Source: Petrimonas sp. IBARAKI (GTDB lineage Bacteria; Bacteroidota; Bacteroidia; Bacteroidales; Dysgonomonadaceae). Taken from it: DNA of 64,000 nucleotides. Every line of letters begins with the position of its first letter. Position 1 is the stretch's first letter. Shown piece after piece: positions 858-40,703 of this stretch. Location of the stretch: assembly GCA_002356435.2 (NCBI GenBank), contig AP018040.2:868001-932000 (forward strand). Direction: 5' to 3'. Below the pieces are notes generated by a model that was not told the DNA's origin, searched no databases, and saw only the letters and a list, made by a program, of their open reading frames with translations. Position numbers and translations under genes: made by a program.

Positions 858-1904
858 CTATCTGGCACTTTCGATCATGGAAAGAATATTCTCCAGGGGT
901 GTTCCTGCCTGAATATTGTGGCAGGAACAACAGATGTAACCACCATTCTTGCCCAGGGTCCTGACACATTCCCGTGTCTCTTCCGCCACTTCTTCTGCTG
1001 TGCCCATGGGCAGTATTTTCTGGTTCTCCACGCCACCGTGAAAGATCAGTTCATTTCCGAAGGCCTCCTTAAGTGCCGAACGATCCATACCGGGACATAC
1101 ATGTTGTATAGGGTTCAGAATATCAATGCCACATTCAATCAGTTCAGGTATCAATGGCAGCACGGCCCCGTCGGTATGATACAATACTTTTTTCCCATGC
1201 CGGTGAATCAGGTCACACCACCCTTTTAGCCGGGACTTGAAATGTGTCCTCCAGGACTCCATCGGAATTAGCATGTTGCTTTGCATACCCATGTCGTCAC
1301 TGATAAAAACGATATCAAGCGAATCGTCCATTTCCGTTAACATTCGTTCCAGCATTGCGGTTTGAATGGCATCAATCTTCTCCAGGGCAGCATCGAGAAA
1401 ATCAGGATTGATGATCGTGTCCAGCAAAGCATTTTCCAACCCCCGCATCTGACAATAAATTTCGAAGTGTGATATCCAGGGCCCTATGGTGGCAAAATCC
1501 CAGGCACGGGCCTCCAGGGCAGCTTTTTTTGCCCCGGCATAATCAAATTTGTCCGGGTTGGGCCATAAGGGATAGCTCTCCAGTTGGGAGGGGGAGTGGT
1601 AGTCGGCAATCGGAGGATTGATGTATTCCTGGTAGGTAGCCAGTCCGGCCTTGGTCATGCGTGTGGGAACCCCCCACATGGTGATCTCCCCACTGTCGTT
1701 GGGGTCGAAAAAGCGGCCTGCATATCCGGGGAAGATCCATACGATCTTGTCAATGCCCAGTGCATGATAGACAGCCAGCTCATCCTGTAGGCCGGTATGT
1801 TCACGCAAAACATTCAGGATTTCCGGGGTACACCAAATGTCCACCGGCGTCCGGTCCACGGGTCGGCGGTTGATGGTAGAAAGAATTCGTTCTCTTGGAG
1901 TCAT
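858..1904 (-). CDS. UroD-fold corrinoid methyltransferase, candidate substrate:corrinoid (MT1-type) component
   Basis: 348 residues of the uroporphyrinogen decarboxylase superfamily. The start MTPRERILSTINRRPVDRTP is characteristic of this fold's methyltransferase branch (MtaA/CmuA/O-demethylase relatives) rather than true HemE. Near the C-terminus is ICCSCHNIQAGTPLENIL (residues 324-341), the usual end of the barrel. At the position where zinc-dependent family members have H-x-C this protein has H243-T-D245, so it lacks the standard zinc-thiol pair and may instead handle the methyl donor. It is the last gene of a minus-strand group with a corrinoid protein, a second UroD-fold protein and a MetH-activation-like protein, 13 nt after the preceding stop. 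The family and corrinoid partnership are well supported by context. The substrate is unknown; a methoxylated sugar or methanol from the adjacent pectin-type PUL is inference. Confidence 0.82.
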   Translation of the reverse strand: MTPRERILSTINRRPVDRTPVDIWCTPEILNVLREHTGLQDELAVYHALGIDKIVWIFPGYAGRFFDPNDSGEITMWGVPTRMTKAGLATYQEYINPPIADYHSPSQLESYPLWPNPDKFDYAGAKKAALEARAWDFATIGPWISHFEIYCQMRGLENALLDTIINPDFLDAALEKIDAIQTAMLERMLTEMDDSLDIVFISDDMGMQSNMLIPMESWRTHFKSRLKGWCDLIHRHGKKVLYHTDGAVLPLIPELIECGIDILNPIQHVCPGMDRSALKEAFGNELIFHGGVENQKILPMGTAEEVAEETRECVRTLGKNGGYICCSCHNIQAGTPLENILSMIESAR

Positions 1905-1917
1905 GATAATAATTGTT

Positions 1918-2616
1918 TTAATGGTGGTTTTTGATATTGCGGTAAATACATGTTTTATTGTTGCAAATATCGCATGCGTAGCCTCTTTTCTTTACCTTTT
2001 TCCCAATGCCGACGATTCCGCTCACACTTTTCAGGGGTATCATCAGGCTGCTCCCCGTCAGGCGGATGTTGCAGGGCTGTCCGGGAAGAAGGGAGAAAAG
2101 CGGTTGCTGTTCACTGACAGGCCAGTTGCAATAACCGGGGCTGTACCGGTTGGTGACATGCATCCCAAGCTCCCTGAAAGCATTCTCCAGTTTCTCCTGA
2201 ATCAGGTCCATGGCTCTCTCCACCACCCATGAACCCATGGTGTCGGTGATGAATCCCTTCAGGTAATCCCCCTCCTTGTTGTACTCGCGTGAACGGGCAG
2301 TAAAACCTTCACCCGCCGTACAGACAAGCAGGGCCAGCTTTTCCGCTCCCTTCATGTACCCGCAAATCTGTTGTTGCGGGTGGATCTTCCTGTCCAGGAT
2401 CCTGATCGACCCCTCCTTTTCGTCAATGCGGATATCCTCATACACCGCATATCCTCCCCGTATGCTTGCCAGACCGGGGAGTTGGCCGAACAGCCCGGTC
2501 GCCTCGTGCACCACGGGATTGTCGGGTGAGTGGTCAGGCACCTGCAGTAGCCGCAACAAGTCGCCGAGGTGCAAGCGCAATTCGTCGGGTTCAATGTGAT
2601 AATCGACAAAGGTCAT
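1918..2616 (-). CDS. Stand-alone MetH-activation-domain-like protein, candidate corrinoid reactivase
   Basis: 232 residues from the ATG at 2616. A longer frame to 2697 exists but would overlap the upstream gene by about 70 nt, and this start leaves a 7-nt gap. The core resembles the S-adenosylmethionine-binding reactivation domain of cobalamin-dependent methionine synthase: NRYSPGYCNWPVSEQQPLF matches the R-x-x-PGY...P...Q pattern used to bind AdoMet. The preceding helix (DTMGSWVVERAMDLIQEKL) also fits. The C-terminal tail has C-x2-C-x4-C followed by YR, which could hold a metal or iron-sulfur centre. In MetH this domain reductively remethylates inactive cob(II)alamin. Here it is a separate protein in a corrinoid methyltransferase operon, so reactivation of the neighbouring B12 protein is the likely role. 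Confidence 0.8.
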   Translation of the reverse strand: MTFVDYHIEPDELRLHLGDLLRLLQVPDHSPDNPVVHEATGLFGQLPGLASIRGGYAVYEDIRIDEKEGSIRILDRKIHPQQQICGYMKGAEKLALLVCTAGEGFTARSREYNKEGDYLKGFITDTMGSWVVERAMDLIQEKLENAFRELGMHVTNRYSPGYCNWPVSEQQPLFSLLPGQPCNIRLTGSSLMIPLKSVSGIVGIGKKVKKRGYACDICNNKTCIYRNIKNHH

Positions 2617-2623
2617 GAAAGGT

Positions 2624-3628
2624 TCACTTTTGGTTGAAGGCGGCGAGCGCGTCATAAAAAGCCCGGATGTTCTCCGGCGATACATGCGGAGGCACATCGC
2701 AGCCGGTTGACAATACGAAGTTTGGATAAGGGGCGGTCTCTTCGAGGAGCTGCGTGACCTTTTCCTTAACCTTTTCGGGGGGCAACATCTGCAATACGGC
2801 TACCGGATCGATATTCCCCATCACCAGTACATCCGCCGGACATTGCGCCAGTGCCTCCGTCATATTTGCCGCATTGCCGAAATGATAGGCCGCGGCACCG
2901 GTTTGTATCATGGCATCCGTACAATGGCCCCTGTTTCCGCAATTGTGGAGCACTACCATGAACTGTTCGTCCTGTACCGATTCAATGATCCTTTTGACAT
3001 ACCGGGAGGAAAACTGCAGGCAATCATCGTTGGAGAGCAGTCCCGCGGCCGGCTCCGCGATGACGATACCCGCGCAGCCGCTTTCCTGTTTCAATGCTGT
3101 GGCGTAGGACAGGATAAACTGCGTGCACTTCTCGAGCAGCAGTTCCACCGCACCGGTTTCGAGATAACAACCGGTCATGATCTCCGACATGCCAAACAGT
3201 CTGCCCGCCAGGGAAAAAGGGCCAATCACACCGGCCAGTACGGGTCGGGTATCGATCATCCCTGCCGCCAACCTGTTGGCTTTCAGGTATTGTGGTATTC
3301 TCCCTGCGGCCAGGGAGGGAACCTTCAACCGCTCTACGGTTGAAGCATCAACGAGCTTCCCGGAAATATGGGGCATGTCCTCCTCCGGAAAAGAGATGTC
3401 ACATCCAAACGCTTCCGCCTCAACAGTCAGGTCCATGATTACCGTGGAGGCTTTGGAAGGATATTTGTCGCTAAGCGCTTTAATAGCTCTCGCATGAACC
3501 TCCCCGTTCTGGACGGCTTCCCTTACGGAGTATCCCAGCATCTCGATCCCCGGATGCGTCATGACGGGGATGGCATACCGGTCGGGGGATTGGATGATCT
3601 GTTCCATCCAGCTTTTAATTTCCATCAT
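2624..3628 (-). CDS. UroD-fold methyltransferase with H-x-C...C zinc motif (MtaA-like)
   Basis: 334 residues, uroporphyrinogen decarboxylase superfamily, methyltransferase branch. The zinc-thiol signature is visible as H228-x-C230 in VVLHNCGN and C310 in LSTGCDVPPHVSPENI, the arrangement used by MtaA/MtbA-type methylcobamide:thiol methyltransferases. Other family marks are VIGPFSLAGRLFG (residues 134-146) and GIVIAEPAAGLLS (187-199). Its start overlaps the stop of the corrinoid-protein gene by 4 nt, so the two are translationally coupled. It probably carries methyl groups between the corrinoid protein and a thiol or similar acceptor. Bacteroidota are not known to make coenzyme M, so the acceptor is open; transfer in the opposite direction is also possible. 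Confidence 0.83.
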   Translation of the reverse strand: MMEIKSWMEQIIQSPDRYAIPVMTHPGIEMLGYSVREAVQNGEVHARAIKALSDKYPSKASTVIMDLTVEAEAFGCDISFPEEDMPHISGKLVDASTVERLKVPSLAAGRIPQYLKANRLAAGMIDTRPVLAGVIGPFSLAGRLFGMSEIMTGCYLETGAVELLLEKCTQFILSYATALKQESGCAGIVIAEPAAGLLSNDDCLQFSSRYVKRIIESVQDEQFMVVLHNCGNRGHCTDAMIQTGAAAYHFGNAANMTEALAQCPADVLVMGNIDPVAVLQMLPPEKVKEKVTQLLEETAPYPNFVLSTGCDVPPHVSPENIRAFYDALAAFNQK

Positions 3629-4305
3629 GATGCATTGTTGATTGTCAGTTTATCCAGTATCTCCACCATCTCCTGAGGTCCGTCCGTATAATGGTCGGCT
3701 CCGATTTTTTGCGCAAATTCACGGTTCAGCGGGGCACCGCCCACAAAGGTGATCACCTCCGGAAACGCTTGTTTGATTGTTTGGTTGATAACCGCCATGT
3801 TGGCCATGGTCGTTGTGAGCAAGGCTGACATTCCCACAAAGGCGGAGGGATGGTCCTGAAGCGCTTCAATAAATTTCGTTGCAGGGACATCCACGCCCAG
3901 ATCGATGATTTCATATCCGTTTCCCTCCGCGATCATGCTGACCAGGTTCTTTCCGATGTCATGCAAATCGCCTTCCACCGTGCCGATGATCAGTTTTCCC
4001 TTGTGTGCTACCGTTCCGTCAACGAAAAATTTTTTCAGGTGCATCATCCCGCAGTTCATTGCCTTGGCGCTCATCAGCACCTGTGGTACGAAGACCCGGT
4101 TTTCCCTGAATTTTGTCCCGATGCGTTCCATCCCTGCGATTAATCCTTTTGAAAGTATTTCCGAGGGTGGAAAGTTTAACTCCAATGCCTGCAGGGTAAG
4201 TTCGTCCACACCCGGTTGTCCCTTCATTTCCGGGGGATAGGGGACGCTCCGGTTAATCTTCCCTTTATCCACACAATTGGCAATCTGCTCAAGAATATTT
4301 TCCAT
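3625..4305 (-). CDS. Corrinoid (B12-binding) methyl-carrier protein
   Basis: 226 residues in the two-domain layout of MtaC/MtbC-type proteins. An N-terminal helical cap (about 1-95, with MERIGTKFRENRVFVPQVL and MSAKAM) is followed by a Rossmann-like B12 domain. The lower-ligand motif D-x-H-x-x-G is D113-L-H115-D-I-G118, followed by MSALLTTT (159-166) and the GG at 189-190. His115 should coordinate cobalt in the base-off state. The protein would accept a methyl group from one UroD-fold partner and pass it to the other. It is the first gene of the four-gene module, 60 nt after the phosphoesterase gene and coupled by a 4-nt overlap to the next gene. I see no cobalamin riboswitch in the short gap ahead of it. 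Confidence 0.93.
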   Translation of the reverse strand: MENILEQIANCVDKGKINRSVPYPPEMKGQPGVDELTLQALELNFPPSEILSKGLIAGMERIGTKFRENRVFVPQVLMSAKAMNCGMMHLKKFFVDGTVAHKGKLIIGTVEGDLHDIGKNLVSMIAEGNGYEIIDLGVDVPATKFIEALQDHPSAFVGMSALLTTTMANMAVINQTIKQAFPEVITFVGGAPLNREFAQKIGADHYTDGPQEMVEILDKLTINNAS

Positions 4306-4365
4306 ACGATATTGTTATTTTATGTTAGTGATTTATGTGTTGAAATTTTTTTGATTTTTCTTTAT

Positions 4366-5553
4366 TCAGGGGTAACTGTTATTTTGTGTCTTGAAATGAA
4401 AGGCTTTTACCTGTTTTCCCCCGCTGTTGGAGATCTGGATATCCATCTGTTGTTTATTGGCCTGGACGTTGATCATCTCCCTGTTATGGTTCACCAGTAT
4501 AGGAAAATTAATCGCGTCACTCCTTTCACGATAGATGTGGTTATGAAGATGACCGCACATCATCAAATCAATATTTGCTTTGTTTAAAATGGGGACGAAC
4601 TTGTCCAGGATCTCTTTCTCCCCGTGCCAATTTCCGAAAGGAGGGATATGGGTGATCACCACCTTAAAGGGAGATTGCTGAAATTCATCACCCTGAATCA
4701 CCTTTTCCAGCCATTGGGCCTGTTCGGTACGGTAATTGTCAAAAGCTACGATGCCACTGTATTCAATGTCGTTGTCCGGCTTGTCCTCACCACAGTCGAG
4801 CACGATAAAGCAGACGGGGCCTTGCCGGAACATATAATATAACTGGCCGGTAGGGGTGGGAAAGTAACGGGGAAAGGTTGTTGCGAAATTTCCCCTGGTT
4901 TCATGATTCCCTCTCGCATAATAAAAGGGTGTCTCTTTGGCAAACAACGTCACTGCTTTTTCCAGGAAGTCGTCAAACAGTTTTTTTTCTGAACGGAGAT
5001 CAGTGGTCATGTCTCCGTTAAAAAAAACCAGGTCGGTTTTATCCCATCGGGCCCCTATCAAGAGAGAATCCATCAGTTCGTTGTTGCCGTGAATGTCATT
5101 CAATACCAAAAAAGAAATTTCCTCCTTTTGAGGATTGTTGGTGGTGAATTTAAGCGGTGTTTCACTGTATACATTGCTTGCCACGGTCCGGCCGTAGGTT
5201 ACATGATACGCTTGATGGCTCAGTACCTCCTGGGAATAGATTCGGTACCGGTAGGTAGTGTTGGGTTTCAGATTCTTCAGCCTGACCATATGAACAGAAT
5301 CGACCACTTTGAATCCGTATGATTCTGAAAAAAATTGGGGTCGCGGCTCATGATAGAAATGGGTTTTGTCGTCCGGAGCCAGCTCCACCCACGATATAGC
5401 CCTTTTATTGGTTGTCCAAACAATTGTTACTTCATCTTTAGTCAATCCTTGCAGGTAGGGACCATGGGTAATGGAGATCCGAGACTGAGCAGCAAGAGAC
5501 ATTGAGAAGTTCAGGAAAAGAGTTATTAATAAGAGCAACTTGGTATTTTTCAT
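4366..5553 (-). CDS. Secreted metallophosphoesterase with N-terminal purple-acid-phosphatase-type domain
   Basis: 395 residues with a cleavable signal peptide (MKNTKLLLLITLFLNFSMSLAAQ). Residues about 25-125 look like the fibronectin-type N-terminal domain of purple acid phosphatases (ITHGPYLQGLTKDEVTIVWTT, LKPNTTYRYRIYS). The calcineurin-like catalytic blocks follow in order: LNDIHGN, FFNGDMT, YARGNHETRG, VITHIPPFGNWH and MMCGHLHNH, supplying the dinuclear-metal ligands. The start codon shares one base with the stop of the GH29 gene (TAATG arrangement), so it belongs to the PUL transcript. A phosphomonoesterase or phosphodiesterase acting on a decorated glycan is possible; the substrate is unknown. 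The assignment to the superfamily is firm. Confidence 0.88.
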   Translation of the reverse strand: MKNTKLLLLITLFLNFSMSLAAQSRISITHGPYLQGLTKDEVTIVWTTNKRAISWVELAPDDKTHFYHEPRPQFFSESYGFKVVDSVHMVRLKNLKPNTTYRYRIYSQEVLSHQAYHVTYGRTVASNVYSETPLKFTTNNPQKEEISFLVLNDIHGNNELMDSLLIGARWDKTDLVFFNGDMTTDLRSEKKLFDDFLEKAVTLFAKETPFYYARGNHETRGNFATTFPRYFPTPTGQLYYMFRQGPVCFIVLDCGEDKPDNDIEYSGIVAFDNYRTEQAQWLEKVIQGDEFQQSPFKVVITHIPPFGNWHGEKEILDKFVPILNKANIDLMMCGHLHNHIYRERSDAINFPILVNHNREMINVQANKQQMDIQISNSGGKQVKAFHFKTQNNSYP

Positions 5554-7100
5554 TATTTATTAAGTGTTGTTGATTTTCTTGCAAATTTATTAAAACTTTT
5601 GTCTACTTCGATGGAAGCATCATTATCTTTCGTCATGGTGTAACGTTTCCTGCCTTCCGGAATGACCACTTTTACTACATCATCCATCTCGGTGCGCTGT
5701 GCGGGTAATAAGGAGAAGTTTATGAATCCGTCCCTGTAAATGAAGGGAATCGATTCTCCCGTGCGGAGAAGGGTCACAGCTATTGGTTTTTGGCCTGTTC
5801 GCAGAGAAACCTGTTTCTGGAATGACGGAAGAAGATGCAGGTACCAGTTATTACCCCGGCTAGTGATCATCACGTTGCTGCGGGCAACTCCGGGAGAGGG
5901 AGCTGCTCCAATCACCGATTCGCGGCTATGTGACATCCATTCGGCGATTGCCTCCATATTCCTGTAGTAGTTAGGGTGCATCTCTCCTTTGCCATCCGGT
6001 CCCACATTAGGGAGGAAGTTCCCCCCTAATGAACGGCTGGCGACAAGATGCTCAAAAAACCAGGCATAAGGCCTGAAGGTGCCTGTTTTGTCATACCCCC
6101 AGCCACCACCTCCCGATGTCCAGATATCACAGTGTTCCCACCATTGGGATGGCGTATAGGTGGGGAGAATACATTCAAAAGGAGTGGTGAAGTCACCGAT
6201 CCGCATGCCGCTTCCGGCAGGGTCATCGGGATTCACAATGTTGGACCAGCGGTCGTTGATCACAATCCCCGGTTGCAGGGAACGGATCCAGGTATAGATC
6301 TGCTCTGTGTGCATATCACTCACTCCTTTGAAATACATGCCATCCAGCCACAGAATATCAATTTTGCCGTATCGGGTAAGGAGCTCTTCCATTTGTGCAA
6401 GGACAAACCCGAGAAACCGTTCGTACTTCTGATAATTTGCGACAGAATCGGTAATAGCCGGCAGCTGATGCCACTTCTCCGCATCATATTCATTGGGGTG
6501 CATCAACCCCGGAAAATGCCAGTCCCTGGGAGAGAAATAAAAACCAACCTTCAGGCCGTTTTTTCTACAGGCATCAACATAAGGTTGAATAAGATCCCGC
6601 CCACCCATGTATTGTTTGGTGCCAATACCATATTTGGAGGGCCACAAGGCATAACCGTCATGGTGTTTGGTGGTAAGCACGGCATAGGTGAAACCTGCTT
6701 TTTGGGCTGATTTCAACCATTTGTCGGGGTCGTAGTTCTGTGGATCAAATTGATTGGCCAGGGCATAATAACGTTCGGGAGGTGCTACTTTCCCTCCATA
6801 CCTGTAATGGGCAATCATATCCCACGATGGTTGTGCGCCCACCACACTGTGAATCCCCCAGTGCATGAAAAGCCCGAGGCTGGCATTGGGATACCACTGC
6901 GCCTCTTTATGGGGATTGGGTAGTAGCAGATCCTCTTTCAGCGGCGTTGATATCACTTTTTTGGCTCTTTCAATATCTTTCTTGTCGATGAGGTAGGATT
7001 CGGGGAAACTATTGAATTGTGCAGATAATGGGAGAGTTGTTGTACACAACAGTAACAGGATTGCACACTTTATCTGAAAGATTTTATTTTTACTACTCAT
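5553..7100 (-). CDS. GH29 alpha-L-fucosidase, secreted
   Basis: 515 residues with a signal peptide ending near LSAQ. GH29 motifs are clear: LGLFMHWGIHSVVG (75-88), TTKHHDGYALWPS (143-155), GLKVGFYFSPRDWHFPG (182-198) and GKIDILWLDGMYF, where D253 should be the catalytic nucleophile. The family releases terminal alpha-L-fucose. The catalytic barrel is followed by a short C-terminal domain rich in beta strands. It sits between the GH31 gene and the phosphoesterase in the PUL1 array, which fits trimming of a fucose-bearing side chain. Some GH29 enzymes of Bacteroidota act on other deoxy sugars, so linkage and exact sugar are not fixed by sequence. Confidence 0.93.
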   Translation of the reverse strand: MSSKNKIFQIKCAILLLLCTTTLPLSAQFNSFPESYLIDKKDIERAKKVISTPLKEDLLLPNPHKEAQWYPNASLGLFMHWGIHSVVGAQPSWDMIAHYRYGGKVAPPERYYALANQFDPQNYDPDKWLKSAQKAGFTYAVLTTKHHDGYALWPSKYGIGTKQYMGGRDLIQPYVDACRKNGLKVGFYFSPRDWHFPGLMHPNEYDAEKWHQLPAITDSVANYQKYERFLGFVLAQMEELLTRYGKIDILWLDGMYFKGVSDMHTEQIYTWIRSLQPGIVINDRWSNIVNPDDPAGSGMRIGDFTTPFECILPTYTPSQWWEHCDIWTSGGGGWGYDKTGTFRPYAWFFEHLVASRSLGGNFLPNVGPDGKGEMHPNYYRNMEAIAEWMSHSRESVIGAAPSPGVARSNVMITSRGNNWYLHLLPSFQKQVSLRTGQKPIAVTLLRTGESIPFIYRDGFINFSLLPAQRTEMDDVVKVVIPEGRKRYTMTKDNDASIEVDKSFNKFARKSTTLNK

Positions 7101-7134: not shown

Positions 7135-9543
7135 TTATTTTTGAATTTCAATGATCTGCTTTTTATTTAGGTCTCCCTGATACAAGGTGAATTGGACTGC
7201 TCCTTTACCATACTTCCAATCATCTATTCTGATGCCATTCACCAGCAAATAAGAGGGTTTTGTATCGGAGAAAATTTCAAGTTCCCAGGTTCGCTCTTTG
7301 GGCATCCCTTCGTATCGGCCCTCTACGGGATTAAAGGTAATCTCTGTATTTTGTCCGGTATCGACACAATCGATCTTCGTCTTTGAAAAATCACCCTTTT
7401 CATATGCAAAAGTGATCCCATCATCTTCCCAGAGTATATAGCTGCTTGTTTGATAAGGATAGATCTTCAGCTCAATGGTATCGAGTAAATTTTCACCAAT
7501 AAACTGAGTCGGTTTTTGGTAAGGAATAATTGCCCCTTCGCGGATAAAAAGGGAGCCACCTCTCGTTTCCGGCACCGAAGCATGAATGGTCTTGTTGCCT
7601 GTAACTGTTTCGCCGGTCCAGTAATTGATCCATTTCCCTTTCGGCAAATAGAGAGAATCACTGTTGACCCCTACCAGCAGATGGTCTCCAAACATAAACT
7701 GGCTGGTCAGGTTATCCACTGTACGGTCATCAGGGAACACCAGGGGCATTGCCCGCAAAATGGGCATTCCGGACTGGCTCCCTTGCAATGCTGCTGAATA
7801 GATATAAGGGAAGAGGCTGTTGCGAAGGGTTGCATAAAAGTGAAAGGTCTCTTTCTCTTCCGGGTTCATGTACCAAGGATGAAGCAGGTTGTACCAACTG
7901 TTGACCTGGATCCAGGGAAAGAAGAACCCCATATGCATAGCCGCCTTGTTGTCAGAGACCTCTACCAGGACGTCGGCCGAAGTATTGACGAAGCCGCTAA
8001 GGCCAAGATTCAGCTGATCGAGCAGGGCCACTTTGTCTCCGCCGTTGTCTCCGCTGGTGGATACCCCCCAATGCTGGGTTCCGGCATATCCCCCGCAATA
8101 GTGGTGAAAGGAGCGTATACCCTTGTGAGAACGGAAGGTCTCGTACATCTGCTTGGGGAGCAACACCTGATTCAGGTTATGCATCTCTTTGTCTGTAAGC
8201 CCGTTATGATATGCTCGGTCTGGGTGTTCATCGAGTGTGTGGGCAGGGTCCAGTTTGAATCCATCTACACCCTGATCGATAAACCGGGTGAGGTGTTGAA
8301 ACCAATGATCTTTGCCGGAGAGTGACGCTCCGCGCTCCAATGCCAACTTGTCTTCCTCGGCGATGGTCATGTCATGATCGATACAAAGCCATAAAGCCAG
8401 TTTAAATCCAAGGCCATGTAAACGGGAGATAAAGAGGGTGGGGTGTTCATATTTTGGAAATTTCTCTTTTTCCCAAAAGGGTTCTGCTGGGAATTTGTCG
8501 AAATTCCAGTTTTTAGAGGTGGAGAAATCATATCTTTTTTCCATCCACTGGGGTTCAAGCCAAAAAATATCACAAGGAATCTGCTCTTCCCGAAAACGAA
8601 GTGCATCGTTCAGGATATCCAGTTGATCTTCCATTGTATTGCCGCCAAATGCAAGTCCGTACCCCCATTTTGGCATGAGGTAGGGCCTTCCTGTGACACG
8701 GGTATAGTGATCAATCACCTCGGTCATTTGCCTGCCTAGTAACAAGTAAAAATCGGGATCACCCTCGCTGTTGTAGACAAAAAGGTTGTCTTTTTGAAAG
8801 CGACCAATATCCAAATAGTTTTTTGCCGTTGTATTATTGAAGATGCCCCATCCCTCAGAACTGATGATGAAAGGCATCGGTATTTCTGTCTTTTTGTAAG
8901 TGGCCCACATGCGCAGAGCCGTACCCCGGTGTTGGATGTTGGTGCGACTGGTACTTCCTCCCCCGTAGAAGCGCTCTTCTTCTTTGAGGGTGACGCCAAT
9001 TATCCTGCCCTTGGAGAGATTGCCAACCTCATCCAACAATTGGGCCTGTATCGGTGTGTCCGATTTTCCTGAACCGATAATTGCTTCGTCCTGCCTTATC
9101 TCTCCAAAATAGGTGTTGAGGGAAGCAGCCAGCTCGTGGGCTATGGCATCCTTAGGCTGGATAAAGGAAATTCTTTCCACAACAAGTATTCCATTGTTAT
9201 CGGTAACGGTGATGTCACCAGCAAGAGGATCCACAGTGAGGCGATACGACTCTGTGGAAATTATGTGTTTTCCATTCTTCTTTTTGTGGGTGGCACCGAT
9301 TGGTTCCCAATCCGTTTTGATGATTCCGTACCTCTCCATCACGGTTTCCTGAAATTCACCTGTAGGGGAAATCCTGATTCGAAAGATTTCGTTTCGGCAC
9401 GCCTGGATACGTAAAACCTGTCCGTTGTGAAGCGGAATATCAAACGGGTCCGGCCTGCCTTTGGCATTCAGTTGATGATTCATGCCGGAAAAGAACCAAA
9501 GCAGTCCGGCAAAAAAGAATAGAATATGTAAGTTAATCTTCAT
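7135..9543 (-). CDS. GH31 alpha-glycosidase (alpha-glucosidase/alpha-xylosidase type)
   Basis: 802 residues with an N-terminal hydrophobic signal. The N-terminal beta-sandwich (about 40-270, with ERFYGGGSTS) precedes a TIM barrel containing LMPKWGYGLAFGG (289-301), CDIFWLEPQWM (324-334) and GVDGFKLDPAH, where D432 is the expected nucleophile. HWGVSTSGDNGGD (491-503) supplies the acid/base aspartate. A proximal and a distal C-terminal beta domain follow (LPKGKWINYWTGE, RGGSLFIREGAIIPYQ). GH31 members in plant-glycan PULs are often alpha-xylosidases or alpha-galactosidases, so the sugar cannot be decided here. It lies 34 nt upstream of the GH29 gene in the same orientation. Confidence 0.93.
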   Translation of the reverse strand: MKINLHILFFFAGLLWFFSGMNHQLNAKGRPDPFDIPLHNGQVLRIQACRNEIFRIRISPTGEFQETVMERYGIIKTDWEPIGATHKKKNGKHIISTESYRLTVDPLAGDITVTDNNGILVVERISFIQPKDAIAHELAASLNTYFGEIRQDEAIIGSGKSDTPIQAQLLDEVGNLSKGRIIGVTLKEEERFYGGGSTSRTNIQHRGTALRMWATYKKTEIPMPFIISSEGWGIFNNTTAKNYLDIGRFQKDNLFVYNSEGDPDFYLLLGRQMTEVIDHYTRVTGRPYLMPKWGYGLAFGGNTMEDQLDILNDALRFREEQIPCDIFWLEPQWMEKRYDFSTSKNWNFDKFPAEPFWEKEKFPKYEHPTLFISRLHGLGFKLALWLCIDHDMTIAEEDKLALERGASLSGKDHWFQHLTRFIDQGVDGFKLDPAHTLDEHPDRAYHNGLTDKEMHNLNQVLLPKQMYETFRSHKGIRSFHHYCGGYAGTQHWGVSTSGDNGGDKVALLDQLNLGLSGFVNTSADVLVEVSDNKAAMHMGFFFPWIQVNSWYNLLHPWYMNPEEKETFHFYATLRNSLFPYIYSAALQGSQSGMPILRAMPLVFPDDRTVDNLTSQFMFGDHLLVGVNSDSLYLPKGKWINYWTGETVTGNKTIHASVPETRGGSLFIREGAIIPYQKPTQFIGENLLDTIELKIYPYQTSSYILWEDDGITFAYEKGDFSKTKIDCVDTGQNTEITFNPVEGRYEGMPKERTWELEIFSDTKPSYLLVNGIRIDDWKYGKGAVQFTLYQGDLNKKQIIEIQK

Positions 9544-9594
9544 GTAATCCCAGTGATAATTTATCCATCCATCCGTGATTGGACTTTCCTCAAG

Positions 9595-11709
9595 TTAAGG
9601 GAACTTGTGGAAGTTCTCGTATTTTATTTTCCAACTACTGTCTTTCGGGAACCCGGGGGCTGTAACGTCTCCGGAGCCATCCCATCCTTCAGCCATCATC
9701 GCGATAGCTGTCAGTAACCCTCCGTTTGACGGGAAATAGGGATAAGGTGATCCTTCGCCATAGGCCAATCCGTGTTCATCAAAGATATAATTATCGTGCA
9801 ACAGCAGGTCAACCGCCAGCTCCGGCCGGCCTAACCGGGCTGCTGTCATTGCCAGCATCGGAAAATCCCATCCCCAGATCCTTTTAAAATTCCAGGTGGA
9901 AAGAATCTTGTCGAAGGTCTTTTCCAATATTACTTTATCCACATCATCGCCGGGTAACATGCCATAAATACCAATGATGGCAGGATGCTCAAAGGTATAT
10001 TTGGTCCACATATCGGGTATCCCCTCATACAGGACATAAAGGCTATCTTCCACCGGATAGGGTGATAACTGGTGATAAACACTGTCTATTTTTGTCGGAA
10101 CATCGATATTGAGTCTGTTGTACCATTCTTTAGCTACCTTCAGTCCGTAACGCCAGTAACCCAGTTCAAATGTGGGATTGAACGTTTCGGCATAAGGTGT
10201 GTTTTCTGAAACGGGAACAATGGGAGGCCCCAGAACATATTCATCTTTTTCCGGATGATAATAGGCAAACGAAGCCAGGAATTCCGCGGTGCTGAAGACT
10301 ACTTCCCGCCATTTCTCTAGCGTTTCCCGGTTTGGCTTTTGACGATATTCCATCTCTGCAAAGTAGATAGGATGAGGTTGTTGCCATATCAGAAAAGCAT
10401 GGGCAACGCCTGGCCACTCCACGTTATTGTATGCAGTACATTTTGGCCATTTTGTTCCCTGAAAGCCTTCACTCTTAGCCCTTAGCCTGGCCGTTTCCAG
10501 GAAATCTTGATAAATACCCAGGCTCTTGTCTGCCAGCTCCTGATTATCCCATAAAGCCCAATGTGCCAGATGCCACCAGATCATCTCAAAATGGAAGCGG
10601 CCATACCAGCCGTTGTTGTTTACCAGCCCGCTTTCTTGCGGAGGTAAGGATCCCGACTCATTTGCCTTCATCAGGTAGCGGGATAAAACGATGCGTCTCT
10701 CCAGTTCAAACCAACGTTCGTCTTCGCTCTCGGAGAGATCGACCGCTGCTCCCGATTCCCAAAATTGCTTCCATGCTTTCCTGCTAGCCGAAAGTCCTTC
10801 TTTTGCTGTGACAGGCTTCTCTTGAATCTGTTTGGGTGAGAACTCACAGGTGAATGCCATCTTGTTTCCCTCGGGAGTTAGCCTATAAGTGTGAGGATTA
10901 TCTTCTGCCTCGGAAAAGATACAGGGGGTATCCCAGGACAACGCAGAGTAATATTTTTCCTGATCTAGCTCCCGGGTAAAAATAACCTTTTGCTTGGTTC
11001 CTGTGTAGGTGGTTGCATGTCTGTCGGGTTCATCCCAAATGCCGATATAATTTCCTTTCCTGCTGTTGTGGGCAGAAGCTCCGGGAAAGGTGATCTTTAC
11101 AGCCAACCTCTTGAGGTCGATAAGGGGTGATTCTACTGTCACGGCGATCAGGTCTCTATCGGGATGGCAGGCGGTATATACCTGTACAGGAATATCATCA
11201 ATCTCAAAATAACTGGAGATGATGCCGCTCCAAAGATCCACTTCCTGCAGACAATTCTGCAGGTCGGTCATCGCTACTTCCTTGCCCTCCGCACCCAACA
11301 ATGAGAAAGCGATCCTGGCCAGGTTGATCCGATGCGGGTTGCCCACCAGCCATTCGGTAATCACCTTTTGCTCTTCCGTCTCCTCGTTTCTGAGGGGATA
11401 GGTGACCATCCTTCCGTTGTGAAGTACTTGCTGTCCCTTGAAATTGCTAATATCCACACCTTCGGGTACCGGGTCCGAATGCCATCCCCATTGCGACAGG
11501 GTATTGAAAGGAACAAAAGTCTGTAATCCGGTGATATCCACTCCAAAAGCGATTTCACCGTTTCCCACTTGTGCCGGACTGCGTTTGCTGAATTTTTCGG
11601 ATACGATGTTGTGTCGCGAGACCACCTCCTTGCGGTTGATTCTGTTCTTATTAGCTGGATTGTTACAGCCCAATAGCAGGATGATCAGTATAAAATAGCT
11701 TACCCTCAT
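9595..11709 (-). CDS. Lipoprotein with (alpha/alpha)6-barrel glycosidase fold, GH65/GH95-like
   Basis: 704 residues starting with a lipoprotein signal (IILLLGCNNP). An N-terminal beta-rich domain begins QVGNGEIAFGVDITGLQTFVPFNTL, a pattern seen in GH65/GH95-type proteins. A helical domain follows with SGLVNNNGWYGRFHFEMIWWHLAHW and IWGWDFPMLAMTAARLGRPELAVDLLL, typical of six-hairpin glycosidases. The acidic pair around FHFEMIWWH and the ETFNPTFELGYWRYG segment are candidate active-site elements. I cannot name the exact family with confidence: it may be an unclassified relative of clan GH-L. It is probably surface or periplasm anchored and acts on an oligosaccharide released by the other PUL1 enzymes. 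Confidence 0.7.
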   Translation of the reverse strand: MRVSYFILIILLLGCNNPANKNRINRKEVVSRHNIVSEKFSKRSPAQVGNGEIAFGVDITGLQTFVPFNTLSQWGWHSDPVPEGVDISNFKGQQVLHNGRMVTYPLRNEETEEQKVITEWLVGNPHRINLARIAFSLLGAEGKEVAMTDLQNCLQEVDLWSGIISSYFEIDDIPVQVYTACHPDRDLIAVTVESPLIDLKRLAVKITFPGASAHNSRKGNYIGIWDEPDRHATTYTGTKQKVIFTRELDQEKYYSALSWDTPCIFSEAEDNPHTYRLTPEGNKMAFTCEFSPKQIQEKPVTAKEGLSASRKAWKQFWESGAAVDLSESEDERWFELERRIVLSRYLMKANESGSLPPQESGLVNNNGWYGRFHFEMIWWHLAHWALWDNQELADKSLGIYQDFLETARLRAKSEGFQGTKWPKCTAYNNVEWPGVAHAFLIWQQPHPIYFAEMEYRQKPNRETLEKWREVVFSTAEFLASFAYYHPEKDEYVLGPPIVPVSENTPYAETFNPTFELGYWRYGLKVAKEWYNRLNIDVPTKIDSVYHQLSPYPVEDSLYVLYEGIPDMWTKYTFEHPAIIGIYGMLPGDDVDKVILEKTFDKILSTWNFKRIWGWDFPMLAMTAARLGRPELAVDLLLHDNYIFDEHGLAYGEGSPYPYFPSNGGLLTAIAMMAEGWDGSGDVTAPGFPKDSSWKIKYENFHKFP

Positions 11710-11720
11710 AAGGATTCGTA

Positions 11721-14051
11721 TTATTTAAATCTTTTCTTCATCGGTTTCCTGCCCATCTTGAACAGCAGCTCACCCCCTTTGATCAGGTCTCTGTGGAGCA
11801 AGGTGTAGTCCCTGACTGGCTTGCCGTTTATTTCCACATGCTGGACGTAGATGTTTTTTTCATCGTAATTCTCCACTTTGACTACCAGTTCCTTGTTGTT
11901 CGGAAGTTGCAGGGTTGCCTCTTTGACGGAGGGTGAGCCAATGGCGTATTGTCCCGATGCGGGTGCAACCGGGTAGAAGCCCAGCGAAGAGAAAACATAC
12001 CAGGCAGACATCTGGCCACAGTCATCGTTGCCACACAATCCGTCGGGTTTGTTCAGGTACATGCTGTTTTTGATCTGGTGAATTCGTTCCTGTGTTTTCC
12101 AGGGTTTGCCGGCCCAATTGTAGAGGTAAGGCACGTGATGGCTAGGTTCGTTGCCGTGCACGTAGCAACCAATCAATCCCTCCCGGGTTACATCTTCCGT
12201 TTCGGCAAAATACTTATCCGGCAGGTACATGGTAAAAAGGGTGTCCAGGTATTGCGAAAAACGTTCATTTCCACCCATTCTCTGGATGAGGGCAGGTACA
12301 TCGTGCGGTACATAGAGCGAATAATTCCATGAATTGCCTTCGATAAACCCTTCATTGGCCGTATGGAGTGGATCAAAGGGAGCTTTCCAGCTTCCGTCAC
12401 TGTTCTTTGCACCCACAAACCCGGTGTTGTTGTTGAACAGGTTTTTCCAGTTGTGGGCCCGTTCGTTGAATTTTGCGGCTACCTCCTTGTTGCCGATCGA
12501 TTCCGCCAGTTGAGCAATTGCCCAGTCGTCATAGGCATATTCCAGGGTCATGGAGGAGCCGTATACACTTTTGTCAAACGGCACATATCCCAGTTTCATG
12601 TAGTCATCGAGGTTCCCGTAGTTGGGGTAGGTTGCCGAGGATACCGATGCCTCCAGTGCCCGCTGCGGGTCAAAACCCCGGATACCGTTTACCCAGGCGT
12701 CAGCGATCACCGGCACGGCATGATAACCGATCATGCACCAGTTTTCATTACCAAAATGACTCCATACCGGCAGGGATTTATGTACACTTTGGTCATGATG
12801 AGCCAGCATGGAATTAACCATATCGGAAGTACGTTCCGGTTGTATGATTGTCAACAACGGATGCAGTGCCCGGTAAGTGTCCCACAAGGAGAAAACAGAG
12901 TAATTGACAAATCCTTCCGCCTTGTGTATCTGGTGGTCGATTCCCCTGTACAGGCTATCTACATCCATGTATTCAACAGGATTGATAAACGTGTGGTACA
13001 ATGAGGTGTAGAATGTTTCTTTCTTTTCCGGTGTAGCTTTAATCCTGATTCTCTCCAGTTCCTTTTGCCATTTCTCTTTGGCTTCATTTTTCACCCGGTC
13101 GAAATCAAAATGAGGTACTTCGGCATAGAGGTTTTTCAGTGCCCCTTCGGTGCTGACAGCAGAAAGGGCAAATTTGATCTTGATTTTCTCTCCCGCTTCC
13201 GTTTTGAAGTCGAAGTGGGTCTTCAGTTTTCTGCCACCCATTTCAGGGAAATTGTTTTCCTGGTCAAACTTACGCCAGAAACCGCGATAAACCAGCTCTT
13301 CTTCATTGCGGGACCCGTAATTTTCAATGGGCTTGGAAAAGACCATGGCAAAATAGAGGTAATTGGTCCGCGCCCATCCGCTGGTGATGCGGTAGCCTGT
13401 CACCAATGTGTCGTTGTGTACCCATACCTGTGACCACAATACTTTTCCGTCATAATTGTAGATTCCGTGTGTCAAGTCAAGGACGATGTGCGCATCTTCA
13501 CTTTCTGGAAAGGTATATTGGTGAAAACCCACATGTTCAGTAGTGGTCAACTCGGCATCGATATTGTAATCGTCCAGTGTTACGCGATAGTAGCCGGGTG
13601 TAGCTGTTTCGGTTTCGTGGCTGAATCGCGACCGGTATCCATTCTCCGGTTTGTCGGACGTGCCGGGGTTCAACTGCAATTTCCCGGTAGTGGGCATAAT
13701 CAGAAAATCCCCCAGGTCGGAATGGCCCGTACCACTGAAATGGGTATGGCTGAATCCTACTATGGTGGGGTCGTTGTATTGATAACCGGCACAGTAACGG
13801 TACACGGTGCCTGTATATTTCCCATCTACGGCATACGGGATGGTATCGGTGTCCGGGCTGAGTTGTACCATACCAAAAGGGACGGTAGAACCGGGAAATA
13901 CATGCCCCATTTCCTGAGTGCCGATCATGGGATTCACATATTGCGTCAGGTCTTCAGTTTTCTGTTGTGCGGATAATGACCCAAAGACGGATACTGCGCA
14001 CAGAAGTGTAATAATTGTCTTGTTGCACATGCTCATTGTTTTATAAATCAT
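11721..14051 (-). CDS. GH92 exo-alpha-mannosidase
   Basis: 776 residues with a signal peptide ending near LSAQQ; MSMCNK a few codons downstream is an equally possible start. GH92 hallmarks are VNPMIGTQEMGHVFPGSTVP (39-58), VGFSHTHFSGTGHSDLGDF (98-116), YHTFINPVEYMDVDS, GNEPSHHVPYLYNWAGKPW and CGQMSAWYVFSSLGFYPV. The family comprises calcium-dependent exo-alpha-mannosidases of Bacteroidota, each with a linkage preference that cannot be read from these motifs. Mannose is not a usual pectin sugar, so its presence among GH28/GH106/GH29 genes hints at a mixed glycan such as a plant glycoprotein N-glycan or a gum. It lies 8 nt downstream of the GH141-like gene. Confidence 0.95.
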   Translation of the reverse strand: MIYKTMSMCNKTIITLLCAVSVFGSLSAQQKTEDLTQYVNPMIGTQEMGHVFPGSTVPFGMVQLSPDTDTIPYAVDGKYTGTVYRYCAGYQYNDPTIVGFSHTHFSGTGHSDLGDFLIMPTTGKLQLNPGTSDKPENGYRSRFSHETETATPGYYRVTLDDYNIDAELTTTEHVGFHQYTFPESEDAHIVLDLTHGIYNYDGKVLWSQVWVHNDTLVTGYRITSGWARTNYLYFAMVFSKPIENYGSRNEEELVYRGFWRKFDQENNFPEMGGRKLKTHFDFKTEAGEKIKIKFALSAVSTEGALKNLYAEVPHFDFDRVKNEAKEKWQKELERIRIKATPEKKETFYTSLYHTFINPVEYMDVDSLYRGIDHQIHKAEGFVNYSVFSLWDTYRALHPLLTIIQPERTSDMVNSMLAHHDQSVHKSLPVWSHFGNENWCMIGYHAVPVIADAWVNGIRGFDPQRALEASVSSATYPNYGNLDDYMKLGYVPFDKSVYGSSMTLEYAYDDWAIAQLAESIGNKEVAAKFNERAHNWKNLFNNNTGFVGAKNSDGSWKAPFDPLHTANEGFIEGNSWNYSLYVPHDVPALIQRMGGNERFSQYLDTLFTMYLPDKYFAETEDVTREGLIGCYVHGNEPSHHVPYLYNWAGKPWKTQERIHQIKNSMYLNKPDGLCGNDDCGQMSAWYVFSSLGFYPVAPASGQYAIGSPSVKEATLQLPNNKELVVKVENYDEKNIYVQHVEINGKPVRDYTLLHRDLIKGGELLFKMGRKPMKKRFK

Positions 14052-14059
14052 ATTGTTGA

Positions 14060-16147
14060 TTACTTATTACCGATTGCATAGGTACCCATTTTTTCAAAAG
14101 GAACGGCTTCAAAGCCCCTGATTTTTTCAAATACTGCTGAAGTTTCCGTTAACTTGAAATTCATCCTGTTTTTATCTATAAATCCCGGATCTTCACGGGT
14201 GATAAGATTATTGGTGGTGAAATCGAGGAATTGTTTATCCGCATTTACCCCATCGTCTACTTTTAGTACGGTCTGTCCAACATTTACAAACAGGTTCCTG
14301 TCCACCCGGTTCCTTTTTGGAAAAGAGGGATCCTCTTCCCAGTATTTTGCCAGTTCCGGATAGTTTGTACAGTAGGGAGGCCGATCGAATTTTATTTCAT
14401 TCAATCGCTGTTCAATAATCCCTCCGGGAGCGATCATCGGTTTTGCCCAATCAAAAGCCTGTAAGCGATTGTCTACTTTAATCCCGACCGGGCAATCAAT
14501 GAAAATGTTGTTTGTGTAGGGATTGTCACTACCTCCGCCAATCAATACGGGAAAAGCGCCCGCCTTGTAGAACACGTTCCCGTGCACTTTCATCCCGCAG
14601 GCCGCATCATCGTGATAGATGGCTGTGGTACGATAGCGTTCCGGCAGGTGATGGATGAAATTATATTGCACCAGGTGTCCTCTTTCAGAGGGATTACGGC
14701 CGTAATAAATTGCACCTGCGTCGTCCGTCTCCATACAAACATGATGAATCTCGTTATACTCAATGAGGTGATCATTTCCGGAGAGTAGAATGGCTACATG
14801 CGGAGCATTAAATATTTCATTATGAATGATTTGGTTGCCCACTCCCGATATTTTAATCCCTGCACTGTAGGTTTTGGCGATGCGATTGAAATCGTGAATG
14901 GTGCAATTGTGGACATAATTGCGGGCGGGGGTAAGGGTATTACGGTCTCCTCCTGAAAGAACAATTCCACCTCTCCCCGTTTCATAGATTATACAATCGA
15001 CGATGCCGTTGTTGCTGCTGAATGCCTGTTGTGGCTGTTGTGAAAAACCGGTTGCATCTTCAATGGATATGGCGAAACTGCCTAAATTCCTGAATATACA
15101 ACCTGAAAAAATACAATTGCCGGTTCCATACAATGCTGCCGCACTTCCTCTTGCATTTTCAAAAACGATTCCTTTAACGGTGATATCGGATGCGCCCAGC
15201 ATCTCCATAATAGGCTCTTCGAGGAGCGAAACTTCCAGGGTAGATAGTGTTCCCGGATCAAAAAAATAGAGGATTCCCTCTTCTCGGTCGATACAGTATT
15301 CACCCGGGGCATCTGTTTCTTCCACGATATTGTAGGCATACCATTGATTCCAGGGTTTTCCCGATCCAAAACCGTACCTGTGTGGATGAAAAGTGGTTAT
15401 GGCCTTTTTAGATGAATCAATCGACGCCAGCCTTACCGCATCATCCGCCCATCCGTGATTGAAATAACCGGCAATCCATACTTTCTCCGGATGCTTCCAT
15501 CCGTAAGGCTTGTCCCCCGGATAGGTAAAGGTTGCCCCTTCCTGTCTTTTGTCATCAGCCAGGGACCCGCTGTAGATTACCTTTCCGATGTTAACCGATG
15601 AATCGTTTGGCCATCGGGAGAGGTGTCCCGGTTTTCCGTTGATAAATAACTCCATGGGGGCCGGTGTTACAGGCCGGCCGAAGCCGACCGGCTCTAACTG
15701 GCCATAATCCTCGATAGGTAAGTCTTTCAGGCGGACCATAAATACCTTGTTCCTGTTTGCTTCGGGAAAGATCTCCTCTTTATCTGTCCCTGCAACCGGA
15801 AGAATCTGTTCCGGTGCAATAAGAATACTGCCTGTTAATGTGACTTTTTCATCGGGGAAGGATTGTATGGTAATGTTGTAATCTTTGTCGGTGAAGTGGA
15901 TCGTTCGCTCGATGCGGTAGTTGCCTCCACGCAGCAAGATGGTGTACGGGCGATCGTCCGTTTCTCCCCATCTTTTCTCCCTGATATAATCCCTGGCCCT
16001 CTCCAAGGTCATAAAGGGATCGTTTCGTTTACCGGTGCCTTTGTCATTCCCGTCTACAGAGACATATACCCTGTTGTTGCCTGCACATGATCCCAGAAAA
16101 TACAACAGGAATAAAAAGAGGTAATATCGTCTGGATAAGTTCCTCAC
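14060..16147 (-). CDS. Right-handed beta-helix lipoprotein, GH141-like
   Basis: 695 residues, lipoprotein signal (LFLLYFLGSCAGN). The opening YVSVDGNDKGTGKRNDPFM with ERARDYIRE is the standard entry of secreted beta-helix glycan-active proteins. Repeated beta-helix coils follow, including ITVKGIVFENARGSA, IVDCIIYETGRGGIVLSGGDR, NCTIHDFNRIAKTYSAGI and NEIHHVCMETDDAGAIYYGR. This layout resembles GH141, whose characterised members include an alpha-L-fucosidase acting on rhamnogalacturonan II and a xylanase. The assignment to GH141 rests on overall resemblance, so treat it as probable. It sits 5 nt after the truncated GH28-like gene and 8 nt ahead of GH92, so it is clearly co-transcribed. Confidence 0.72.
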   Translation of the reverse strand: MRNLSRRYYLFLFLLYFLGSCAGNNRVYVSVDGNDKGTGKRNDPFMTLERARDYIREKRWGETDDRPYTILLRGGNYRIERTIHFTDKDYNITIQSFPDEKVTLTGSILIAPEQILPVAGTDKEEIFPEANRNKVFMVRLKDLPIEDYGQLEPVGFGRPVTPAPMELFINGKPGHLSRWPNDSSVNIGKVIYSGSLADDKRQEGATFTYPGDKPYGWKHPEKVWIAGYFNHGWADDAVRLASIDSSKKAITTFHPHRYGFGSGKPWNQWYAYNIVEETDAPGEYCIDREEGILYFFDPGTLSTLEVSLLEEPIMEMLGASDITVKGIVFENARGSAAALYGTGNCIFSGCIFRNLGSFAISIEDATGFSQQPQQAFSSNNGIVDCIIYETGRGGIVLSGGDRNTLTPARNYVHNCTIHDFNRIAKTYSAGIKISGVGNQIIHNEIFNAPHVAILLSGNDHLIEYNEIHHVCMETDDAGAIYYGRNPSERGHLVQYNFIHHLPERYRTTAIYHDDAACGMKVHGNVFYKAGAFPVLIGGGSDNPYTNNIFIDCPVGIKVDNRLQAFDWAKPMIAPGGIIEQRLNEIKFDRPPYCTNYPELAKYWEEDPSFPKRNRVDRNLFVNVGQTVLKVDDGVNADKQFLDFTTNNLITREDPGFIDKNRMNFKLTETSAVFEKIRGFEAVPFEKMGTYAIGNK

Positions 16148-24637: not shown

Positions 24638-24731
24638 AGTACTGCCCGGATGATAAGGGTGTTTTGAAATTGTTACAAAAAATACCGGATCTGATTCGAG
24701 GAATTGCACAAATCAGATAATTTTAGAATGA

Positions 24732-30297: not shown

Positions 30298-30360
30298 ACA
30301 TTTGTAATTGTTTTTAGTTAATACATTGAATATTTCTTGGTTGTGTTGACGAAAACGCAT

Positions 30361-32009: not shown

Positions 32010-32026
32010 CGTCTCAGTTTTCGCAG

Positions 32027-32034
32027 CAAATTTA
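32027..32034 (-). promoter_or_regulatory. Bacteroidota-type -7 box for the PUL1 sigma gene
   Basis: The minus strand reads TAAATTTG here, an exact match to TAnnTTTG, 17 nt upstream of the ATG at 32009. A clear -33 TTTG at the usual distance is not visible. Confidence 0.5.
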
Positions 32035-32109
32035 GGCACAAAAAACTGTCTATTGAAATTATTTGATAAAAATATTGTTTAGGATCAGGCCAACAAATTC
32101 AAAAACAAG

Positions 32110-40689: not shown

Positions 40690-40703
40690 TAAACGATACA
40701 ACA

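Follow-up and report, generated by a model that had tools for sequence, protein, structure and literature searches.

We analysed a 64,000-nucleotide stretch of DNA from Petrimonas sp. IBARAKI (contig AP018040.2; hereafter, the window, C1:868001-932000 of a 3.69-Mb single-contig genome) and identified near its start four adjacent minus-strand genes that almost certainly encode a corrinoid methyltransferase system. The genes lie at the end of a polysaccharide utilization locus (PUL). With a probability of roughly 0.6, and judging from sequence and gene context, we read them as a corrinoid O-demethylase in four parts that would act on a methyl-ether sugar set free by this PUL. Related modular corrinoid systems form a Bacteroidota family that includes this module and combines a constant core with swapped donor enzymes.

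The first gene encodes C (3625..4305, 226 aa, PF02607 and PF02310), a corrinoid (B12) methyl-carrier protein. It is followed by A (2624..3628, 334 aa, PF01208), an MtaA-like UroD-fold methyltransferase predicted to act as methyltransferase II (MT-II); V (1918..2616, 232 aa, PF02965), a MetH-activation-domain-like protein and predicted reductive reactivase; and D (858..1904, 348 aa, PF01208), another UroD-fold methyltransferase, predicted to be methyltransferase I (MT-I). C and A overlap by 4 nt (3625-3628), gaps of 7 nt and 13 nt separate A from V and V from D, and the spacing between C and the phosphoesterase gene ending at 4366 is 60 nt. Genes were called by our own open reading frame (ORF) picker and not taken from annotation; the start of V was set at the ATG at 2616, a longer mechanical ORF (to 2697) running into A.

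The nearest solved structures to C are 1y80 and the trimethylamine corrinoid protein 7xcn, and C resembles MtaC. PF01208 was detected in A at 1.3e-57 and in D at 5e-20, while matches to the MtaA/CmuA subfamily (3e-37 and 2e-17, respectively) stayed below the curated cut-off (Pfam, NCBIfam). The sequence of A matched 4ay7 in the structure database, and the same entry, the M. mazei methylcobalamin:coenzyme M methyltransferase, was the nearest fold to the predicted structure of D (mean pLDDT 83, TM 0.68). V matched PF02965 at 6.6e-9 (Pfam); its predicted structure (pLDDT 93) was closest to MetH activation domains, 1j6r first, then 6bm5, 6bdy and 1msk. The first-pass annotation of this DNA, made from the sequence alone, is borne out by the ORF coordinates in its gene order, overlap and gaps, and by Pfam and the predicted folds in its call of a B12 carrier, two UroD-fold methyltransferases and a MetH-activation-like protein; its description of the set as a complete corrinoid methyltransferase module is likewise supported. 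Corrinoid protein, two methyltransferases and activator co-occur in this one cluster, and the presence of A and D relatives in other genomes of the same order disfavours a chance assembly.

The two UroD-fold proteins differ in their predicted metal sites. A carries a thiol-type Zn motif, H228-x-C230...C310, invariant across 16 aligned orthologues. For D, the donor alignment and tree give an oxygen-type site, H243-x-D245...H329, with a Cys immediately preceding H329. According to a published study, a His-Cys-Cys (HCC) site marks methyltransferases acting on S or Se, and replacement of Cys by a carboxylate or a non-coordinating residue marks those acting on O (PMC10418091). Since A is of the HCC type and most donors of the family are not, this rule casts A as the thiol (acceptor) enzyme and most donors as enzymes acting on oxygen.

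In the mechanism we propose, D, as a metal-dependent UroD-fold MT-I, would move the methyl group of an O-methyl sugar, likeliest an O-methyl-L-rhamnose, to Co(I) on C, and the plain sugar would be freed for normal catabolism. A, as an MtaA-like MT-II with a Cys-type site, would pass the methyl group from CH3-Co(III)-C to a thiol, likeliest homocysteine, giving methionine. V would re-methylate and re-reduce C after its fall to Co(II), probably with S-adenosylmethionine (SAM) and an electron, as its fold suggests.

We investigated the distribution of A among sampled genomes and found it in 17/295 of those from the order (E<=1e-30) and in 9/296 of those from across the phylum (E<=1e-60), the window genome included. 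A set of 99 loci was assembled from the best 80 of 579 relatives, 16 same-order loci, the window and loci L005 and L006; removal of the duplicates L006, L083 and L091 left 96. The best 80 of 579 favour close relatives and, going by their titles, all come from Bacteroidota groups, with Bacteroides, Phocaeicola, Parabacteroides, Prevotella and Alistipes among the genera and Bacteroides xylanisolvens XB1A, Phocaeicola vulgatus ATCC 8482, B. salyersiae, Parabacteroides faecis and P. gordonii among the organisms. Of the 96 loci, 88 yielded a called A, 62 a C, 63 a V and 69 a donor enzyme; the eight loci in which A was uncalled (L041, L063, L071, L087, L096, L106, L111, L121) had each been retrieved via an A match or fragment and were kept in all denominators of 96. 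The strict motif pair HNCG and GCDxPP was found in 86 of the 88 called A proteins, L105 and L118 each missing one of the two. Donors, by comparison, differ between loci, and L120 holds two donors with one core. Site types of the 69 donor candidates were HDH (21), HCH (21), HDK (13), HDG (5), HCC (3), HD- (2), HCN (2), HDN (1) and HDF (1), the column match being uncertain for the most distant donors.

Core A is enriched in genomes that carry donors, though not obligatory there. We compared three overlapping donor sets over the 295 order genomes, 17 of them with A, by Fisher tests that ignore shared descent. Donors fused to, or beside, a corrinoid domain (DC donors) were present in seven genomes, six of which carry A (expected 0.4; Fisher 1e-7). 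D relatives (E<=1e-25) were present in 34, ten with A (expected 2.0; Fisher 1e-6), and another donor type, that of L075 (E<=1e-40), in 20, five with A (expected 1.2; Fisher 0.003). All A genomes except G043 and G190 (15/17) carried at least one of the three types. In four of the six genomes with both, A and DC are on separate contigs: in G219, G064 and G211 each is deep inside its own contig, and in G006 DC sits at a contig end, so that the two may adjoin there. In G111 (86% complete), the one DC genome in which A is absent, DC is fused to the homocysteine S-methyltransferase domain, PF02574.

The link between the module and glycan genes, proposed in the first-pass annotation, recurs across other loci. 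At least one sugar gene was detected in 12/18 A loci versus 5/20 control stretches (Fisher 0.012), and sugar transporters in 8/18 versus 2/20 (Fisher 0.020), in a test that is lenient, as the sugar-gene seeds were drawn from A loci and the window. The 18 A loci comprise the 16 same-order loci, the first 14 kb of the window and L005; the controls are 20 stretches drawn from 13 of these genomes. The sums over glycoside hydrolases (GH) or over all sugar genes exclude GH92, for cases and controls alike, and a second SusC/SusD-like pair of the window (37300-42200) was used as SusCD by eye. Among loci from the best 80 of 579 relatives, 61/78 had a sugar gene.

Several sugar-gene contexts were recognizable. 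In the first, a sodium:solute symporter (SSS), a GH31 and a GH141 protein occur together with a DC donor, in 24/96 loci from Bacteroides, Phocaeicola, Prevotella, Paludibacter, Dysgonomonas, Alistipes and others. The P. vulgatus GH141 of this context matches the BT1002 structure 5mqp (596 bits), and its GH31 matches 5f7c and then YicI enzymes; YicI is an alpha-xylosidase. By eye, the GH31 of this context has no signal peptide. BT1002 is described as freeing 2-O-methyl-D-xylose-alpha-1,3-L-fucose from rhamnogalacturonan II (RG-II) (PMC10154630), and B. thetaiotaomicron as breaking all RG-II linkages except one (PMC12282258). Locus L059 (11973-19658) and 23 similar loci, each with a symporter, a donor-corrinoid protein, a YicI-like GH31 and a BT1002-type GH141, form a candidate route for RG-II 2-O-methyl-xylosyl-fucose. 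The single linkage left unbroken by B. thetaiotaomicron reportedly lies within this disaccharide. In the second context, RhaT (PF06379) was found in eight loci and RhaM (PF05336) in six, one member of each being checked by Pfam and the others by clustering, with donors mostly of 410-420 aa or 344 aa. The third combines a GluP/FucP-type carrier of the major facilitator superfamily with GH127, GH38 or GH92.

The relatives closest to D itself point to rhamnose. They were found in L042 and L043 (78% each), in L189 of genome G270 (71%) and, in two pieces of 57% and 38%, in L190 of genome G007. The D genes of L042 and L189 adjoin orthologous GH78-type proteins (57% identical over 781 aa); L042 further encodes another GH78-like protein and one that is GH106-like, and in both L042 and L043 a rhamnosidase-like protein of 829/830 aa stands in front of C. 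A class II aldolase lies beside D in L190, with an FGGY kinase (rhamnulokinase-like, under the cut-off), an L-rhamnose isomerase (665 bits, over the cut-off) and RhaT 3-8 kb away. Near these L-rhamnose catabolism genes the D relative (L190:8653-10397) is interrupted by an IS5-type transposase (9033-9596). The GH106 protein of the window PUL has a homologue (44% over 954 aa) that adjoins another UroD donor in L195. Because D orthologues stand beside GH78 and rhamnose catabolism genes, the PUL contains GH106 and an L-rhamnose isomerase is encoded elsewhere in the window genome, O-methyl-L-rhamnose is favoured. A methyl-ether sugar is the likely donor substrate of D, and chances are about even that this sugar is an O-methyl-rhamnose. 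B12-dependent demethylation of a methoxy sugar, which the first-pass annotation had offered as an idea, is now the best explanation, with a substrate suggested by gene context.

The same neighbours have to be weighed under an aryl-ether reading, in which D would demethylate methoxylated phenolic aglycones that rhamnosidases have released, as acetogens do. D orthologues are indeed flanked by rhamnosidases, and the anatomy of the module matches that of the four-part acetogen O-demethylases (PMC12915777), so that phenolic aglycones make a fair rival substrate. Related donors, however, adjoin monosaccharide transporters, RhaM, and BT1002-type GH141 with YicI-like GH31; the D relative of L190 is near rhamnose catabolism genes, and the window PUL has SusCD and GH28. 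On balance we consider aryl-ether demethylation unlikely and prefer a sugar as the substrate. RG-II was another candidate for this PUL, named in the first-pass annotation, which also called one of the PUL proteins GH141-like. That call was not confirmed: the beta-helix protein at 14060-16147 is without a GH141_M domain and matches 9rx2, not BT1002/5mqp. With no GH141 domain or BT1002 match in the PUL, and with D orthologues pointing to O-methyl-rhamnose, RG-II is unsupported as its substrate; in Bacteroides, Phocaeicola, Prevotella and others, the set of BT1002-type GH141 and YicI-like GH31 accompanies a different donor.

On the acceptor side, PF02574 is fused between the donor and B12 domains in L114, L171 and L172 (Pfam) and in L084, L093 and L110 (homology). 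These single chains of donor, PF02574 and corrinoid domains (L114:14690-17797, L171:9351-12404, L172:9528-12398, and those of L084, L093 and L110), four of six from Prevotella, have a methionine-synthase-like layout without the folate domain. Stand-alone PF02574 proteins occur near the module in L161 (C, A, V and PF02574 consecutive), L170 (with a DC set), L164 (C, V and PF02574, and A at a distance of 7 kb) and L165 (donor, C, A, V, UroD, PF02574), while the order in L168 is a 37%-identical D relative, C, PF02574, RACE and A. PF02574 was detected in 4/8 A loci from other classes of the phylum versus 0/20 control stretches, and in 4/96 Bacteroidales loci (L026-L121), all four being fusions. 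Because PF02574 is fused to or clustered with relatives, homocysteine is the best-supported acceptor for the family. For the module itself we consider it very probable that some thiol accepts the methyl group and slightly favour homocysteine. Behind C, V and PF02574 in L164 (2883-9690), we noted by eye a row of ribose-pyranase-like and lyxose-isomerase-like proteins, three UroD-like proteins and a GH31.

The predicted reactivator V has conserved cysteines. A tail motif C-x2-C-x(4-7)-C was present in 62/63 V proteins, the lone exception having undetermined bases, and a PGYC motif in 61/63. Over 26 aligned proteins C163, C215 and C218 showed no variation and C223 almost none; three of these four Cys lie in the C-terminal tail, which is modelled at pLDDT 50-62. 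Our guess would be that they hold a metal or Fe-S centre. From its modelled fold, V is predicted to use SAM. V and RACE are both present in four relatives.

The window genome carries C-A-V twice, at window positions 1931-4313 and in L005 at 9576-11958 (genome C1:2333575-2335957). The two 2,383-bp copies are 99.7% identical, with six mismatches, of which none falls in the 2,270 nt that begin at the start codon of C; either a recent copy or gene conversion would explain this. The second copy is without D and has a different UroD gene upstream, D2 (L005:12299-13444, HCC type), accompanied by isomerase-like (PF01261) and Gfo/Idh proteins, with a SusC/SusD pair nearby. Four URO-D matches were detected in the genome, namely the two A genes, D and D2, and a separate HemE for haem synthesis was not found among them. 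A separate 1232-aa MetH is encoded. The genome has no stand-alone tetrahydrofolate (H4folate) methyltransferase, PF00809 being confined to MetH and a dihydropteroate synthase (284 bits, cut-off 163), and no Ram/RACE protein (PF14574).

The HCC-type motifs of A and D2, and the scoring of A with MtaA/MtbA S-methyltransferases, would suit salvage of methyl-sulfur or methyl-selenium compounds, as proposed for the type 1 mlp gene clusters. Against such salvage stand the H-D-H site of D, the MetH-type activator, the lack of Ram/RACE in the genome and neighbours that are glycan genes, and we judge it quite unlikely here. Identity with a type 1 mlp cluster was rejected, as D is H-D-H, A alone is HCC and RACE is missing. 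Methanol, which pectin methyl-esters would yield for C and A and which the first-pass annotation had named as a possible substrate, fares worse. Five other loci from uncultured Bacteroidota (L045, L046, L047, L050, L051) pair A and C with MtaB-like proteins, three of which scored 413-417 bits (cut-off 720) and two of which were assigned by clustering; RACE is present in 4/5 and CobW in 3/5, so that A can serve methanol there, and methanol use by these organisms is possible. The window genome, however, has no match to the MtaB model NF040651, and D is UroD-fold, not MtaB; methanol use is very improbable and was rejected for this genome. That D builds methylated sugars, moving methyl groups from C to the sugar, is hardly credible given the degradative neighbourhood (SusCD, GHs, RhaA, RhaT) and the recurring link to hydrolases, even though a UroD-fold transferase has been assayed in the direction opposite to the one proposed for it (PMC10418091).

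Several observations weigh against a sugar O-demethylase with homocysteine as acceptor. Beyond the leniency of the sugar-gene test, none of the listed sugar genes was found in 6/18 A loci (L026, L032, L034, L036, L037, L040; L034 spans only 3.6 kb). The first-pass annotation had held that a module common in genomes without a PUL would speak against its idea; the sugar link stood in the 12 loci given above and failed in these six, and A and its likely donor are far apart in some genomes. A (E<=1e-30) is missing in 24/34 genomes with D relatives and in 15/20 with the L075-type donor. The two closest D relatives in this set come from genomes without A: one of 71% on a 4.5-kb contig of G270, and a split one of 57% in G007, which is 99% complete and holds intact relatives as well as the split D. 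With donors without A so common, either there must be further enzymes on the acceptor side or a part of the relatives has a different function. D2, as an HCC protein, breaks the simple oxygen rule. PF02574 occurs in the window genome only within MetH, and in L161, L164, L165 and L168 A is retained near PF02574; A kept beside this domain may not be the homocysteine enzyme, leaving homocysteine or another thiol as its acceptor. Finally, the rhamnose link comes from four orthologue contexts, none of them a proven enzyme, and alpha-L-rhamnosidases act on phenolic glycosides too.

The PUL extends from the module to a pair of predicted regulators, all on the minus strand. Next to C lie a calcineurin-like phosphoesterase with a purple-acid-phosphatase N domain (4366..5553; PF00149, PF16656), a GH29 protein of the alpha-L-fucosidase family (5553..7100; PF01120), a GH31 protein with a signal-like N terminus by eye (7135..9543; PF01055, best PDB match 6jr6), a 704-aa protein without Pfam match (9595..11709) and a GH92 protein (11721..14051; PF07971). 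The right-handed beta-helix protein mentioned above (14060..16147; PF13229; structure match 9rx2 only) is followed by three GH28 proteins (PF00295), a short one of 249 aa at 16153..16902 and two others at 16942..18429 and 18469..19947, by the GH106 alpha-L-rhamnosidase (20076..22940; PF17132) and by a weak GH18/GHL10-like protein below Pfam cut-offs (23003..24709). A SusD-like protein (24797..26452; PF07980, PF14322) and a SusC-like TonB-dependent transporter (26470..30360; PF07715, PF13715, PF07660) come next, and a FecR-type anti-sigma factor (30451-31371; PF04773) and an extracytoplasmic function sigma factor (31443-32039; PF04542/PF08281) are predicted to control the PUL. The placement of the module downstream of the GH/phosphoesterase array, in the same direction, and the GH28, GH106, GH29 and GH31 assignments of the first-pass annotation were confirmed, the latter by Pfam, which added GH92. 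Taken together with the results on substrate, its interpretation is partly supported.

A LacI gene was considered as a divergent regulator of the module and rejected, being convergent with D; it starts beside an ADP-ribosylglycohydrolase/PfkB operon. This operon, past the LacI gene and mostly left of the window start (L006:1-7324), encodes two ADP-ribosylglycohydrolase-like proteins, a PfkB kinase, a PHP protein and a GH127-like protein. Further into the window, the second SusC/SusD-like pair, recognized by eye, begins a region that reaches 46715 with the plus-strand genes that follow, the product of 45291-46715 being sulfatase-like, also by eye.

Parts of plant and algal glycans are capped by methyl-ether sugars. 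Tentatively, and at somewhat less than even odds, we suggest that Bacteroidota possess a plug-in system that would carry glycan methyl ethers to methionine without oxygen, made of a shared carrier, a thiol methyltransferase, a MetH-type reactivator and interchangeable sugar-specific demethylases. In Prevotella-type relatives it would form a single chain, methionine-synthase-like with the folate domain replaced by a sugar-demethylase domain, and the branch with GH141, symporter, YicI-like GH31 and demethylase would supply the missing last step for RG-II 2-O-methyl-xylosyl-fucose. If true, what becomes of methyl sugars in the gut would be explained by an anaerobic route in its genera, vitamin B12 supply would be tied to fibre use, and dietary methyl groups would gain a path to methionine. 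Common gut Bacteroides harbour relatives for which other sugar targets are predicted, and the promise would be broader if the fusion proteins work as their layout suggests.

The module can be compared with several known systems. With MtaABC of methanogens it shares an MtaA-like A and an MtaC-like C, and relatives elsewhere pair these with MtaB-like proteins; it differs in the lack of MtaB in the window genome and in its UroD-fold donor. To our knowledge, coenzyme M is not to be expected in this organism. The type 1 mlp clusters of Kountz & Balskus likewise combine several UroD-fold (Mlp) proteins with a corrinoid protein and have no clustered H4folate methyltransferase, but there the clusters have Ram/RACE, nearly all-HCC Mlps and a Se/S link (PMC10418091), whereas the module has a MetH-type activator, an H-D-H donor and glycan genes. 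MetH has cobalamin and activation domains as well, and some relatives of the module add PF02574 fused to the corrinoid domain; in contrast to MetH, the module is without PF02574 and PF00809, a UroD-type donor takes the place of the folate domain, and the domains are split over genes. Removal of sugar O-methyl groups within polysaccharide breakdown is known from Formosa and Zobellia, in which P450 monooxygenases demethylate 6-O-methyl-D-galactose (PMC8360166). Their route is oxidative and releases formaldehyde, while the present system is predicted to be O2-free and to keep the methyl group. The only sugar demethylases met in the literature examined were P450 monooxygenases, and no report of corrinoid sugar demethylation was found, as judged by titles and abstract openings with limited coverage of subscription journals and bioRxiv.

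Closest in organization are the acetogen O-demethylases, of which Odm, Vdm and Mtv are named systems. They comprise four parts, MT-I, corrinoid protein, MT-II and activator (PMC12915777), and share with the module the division of labour, a corrinoid carrier and a substrate set by MT-I; OdmB and VdmB are reported to be UroD-superfamily MT-I proteins (PMC10418091), as D is predicted to be. Acetogen enzymes act on aryl ethers, whereas the predicted substrate here is a sugar. Their MT-II is of the H4folate type (PF00809) and their activator an ATP-dependent Ram/RACE protein (PF14574), in contrast to the MtaA-like A with its thiol-type Zn motif and to the MetH-type activator domain of V. Thus, by analogy and sequence, the module would work like a four-part acetogen O-demethylase, yet with an MT-II and an activator of different types.

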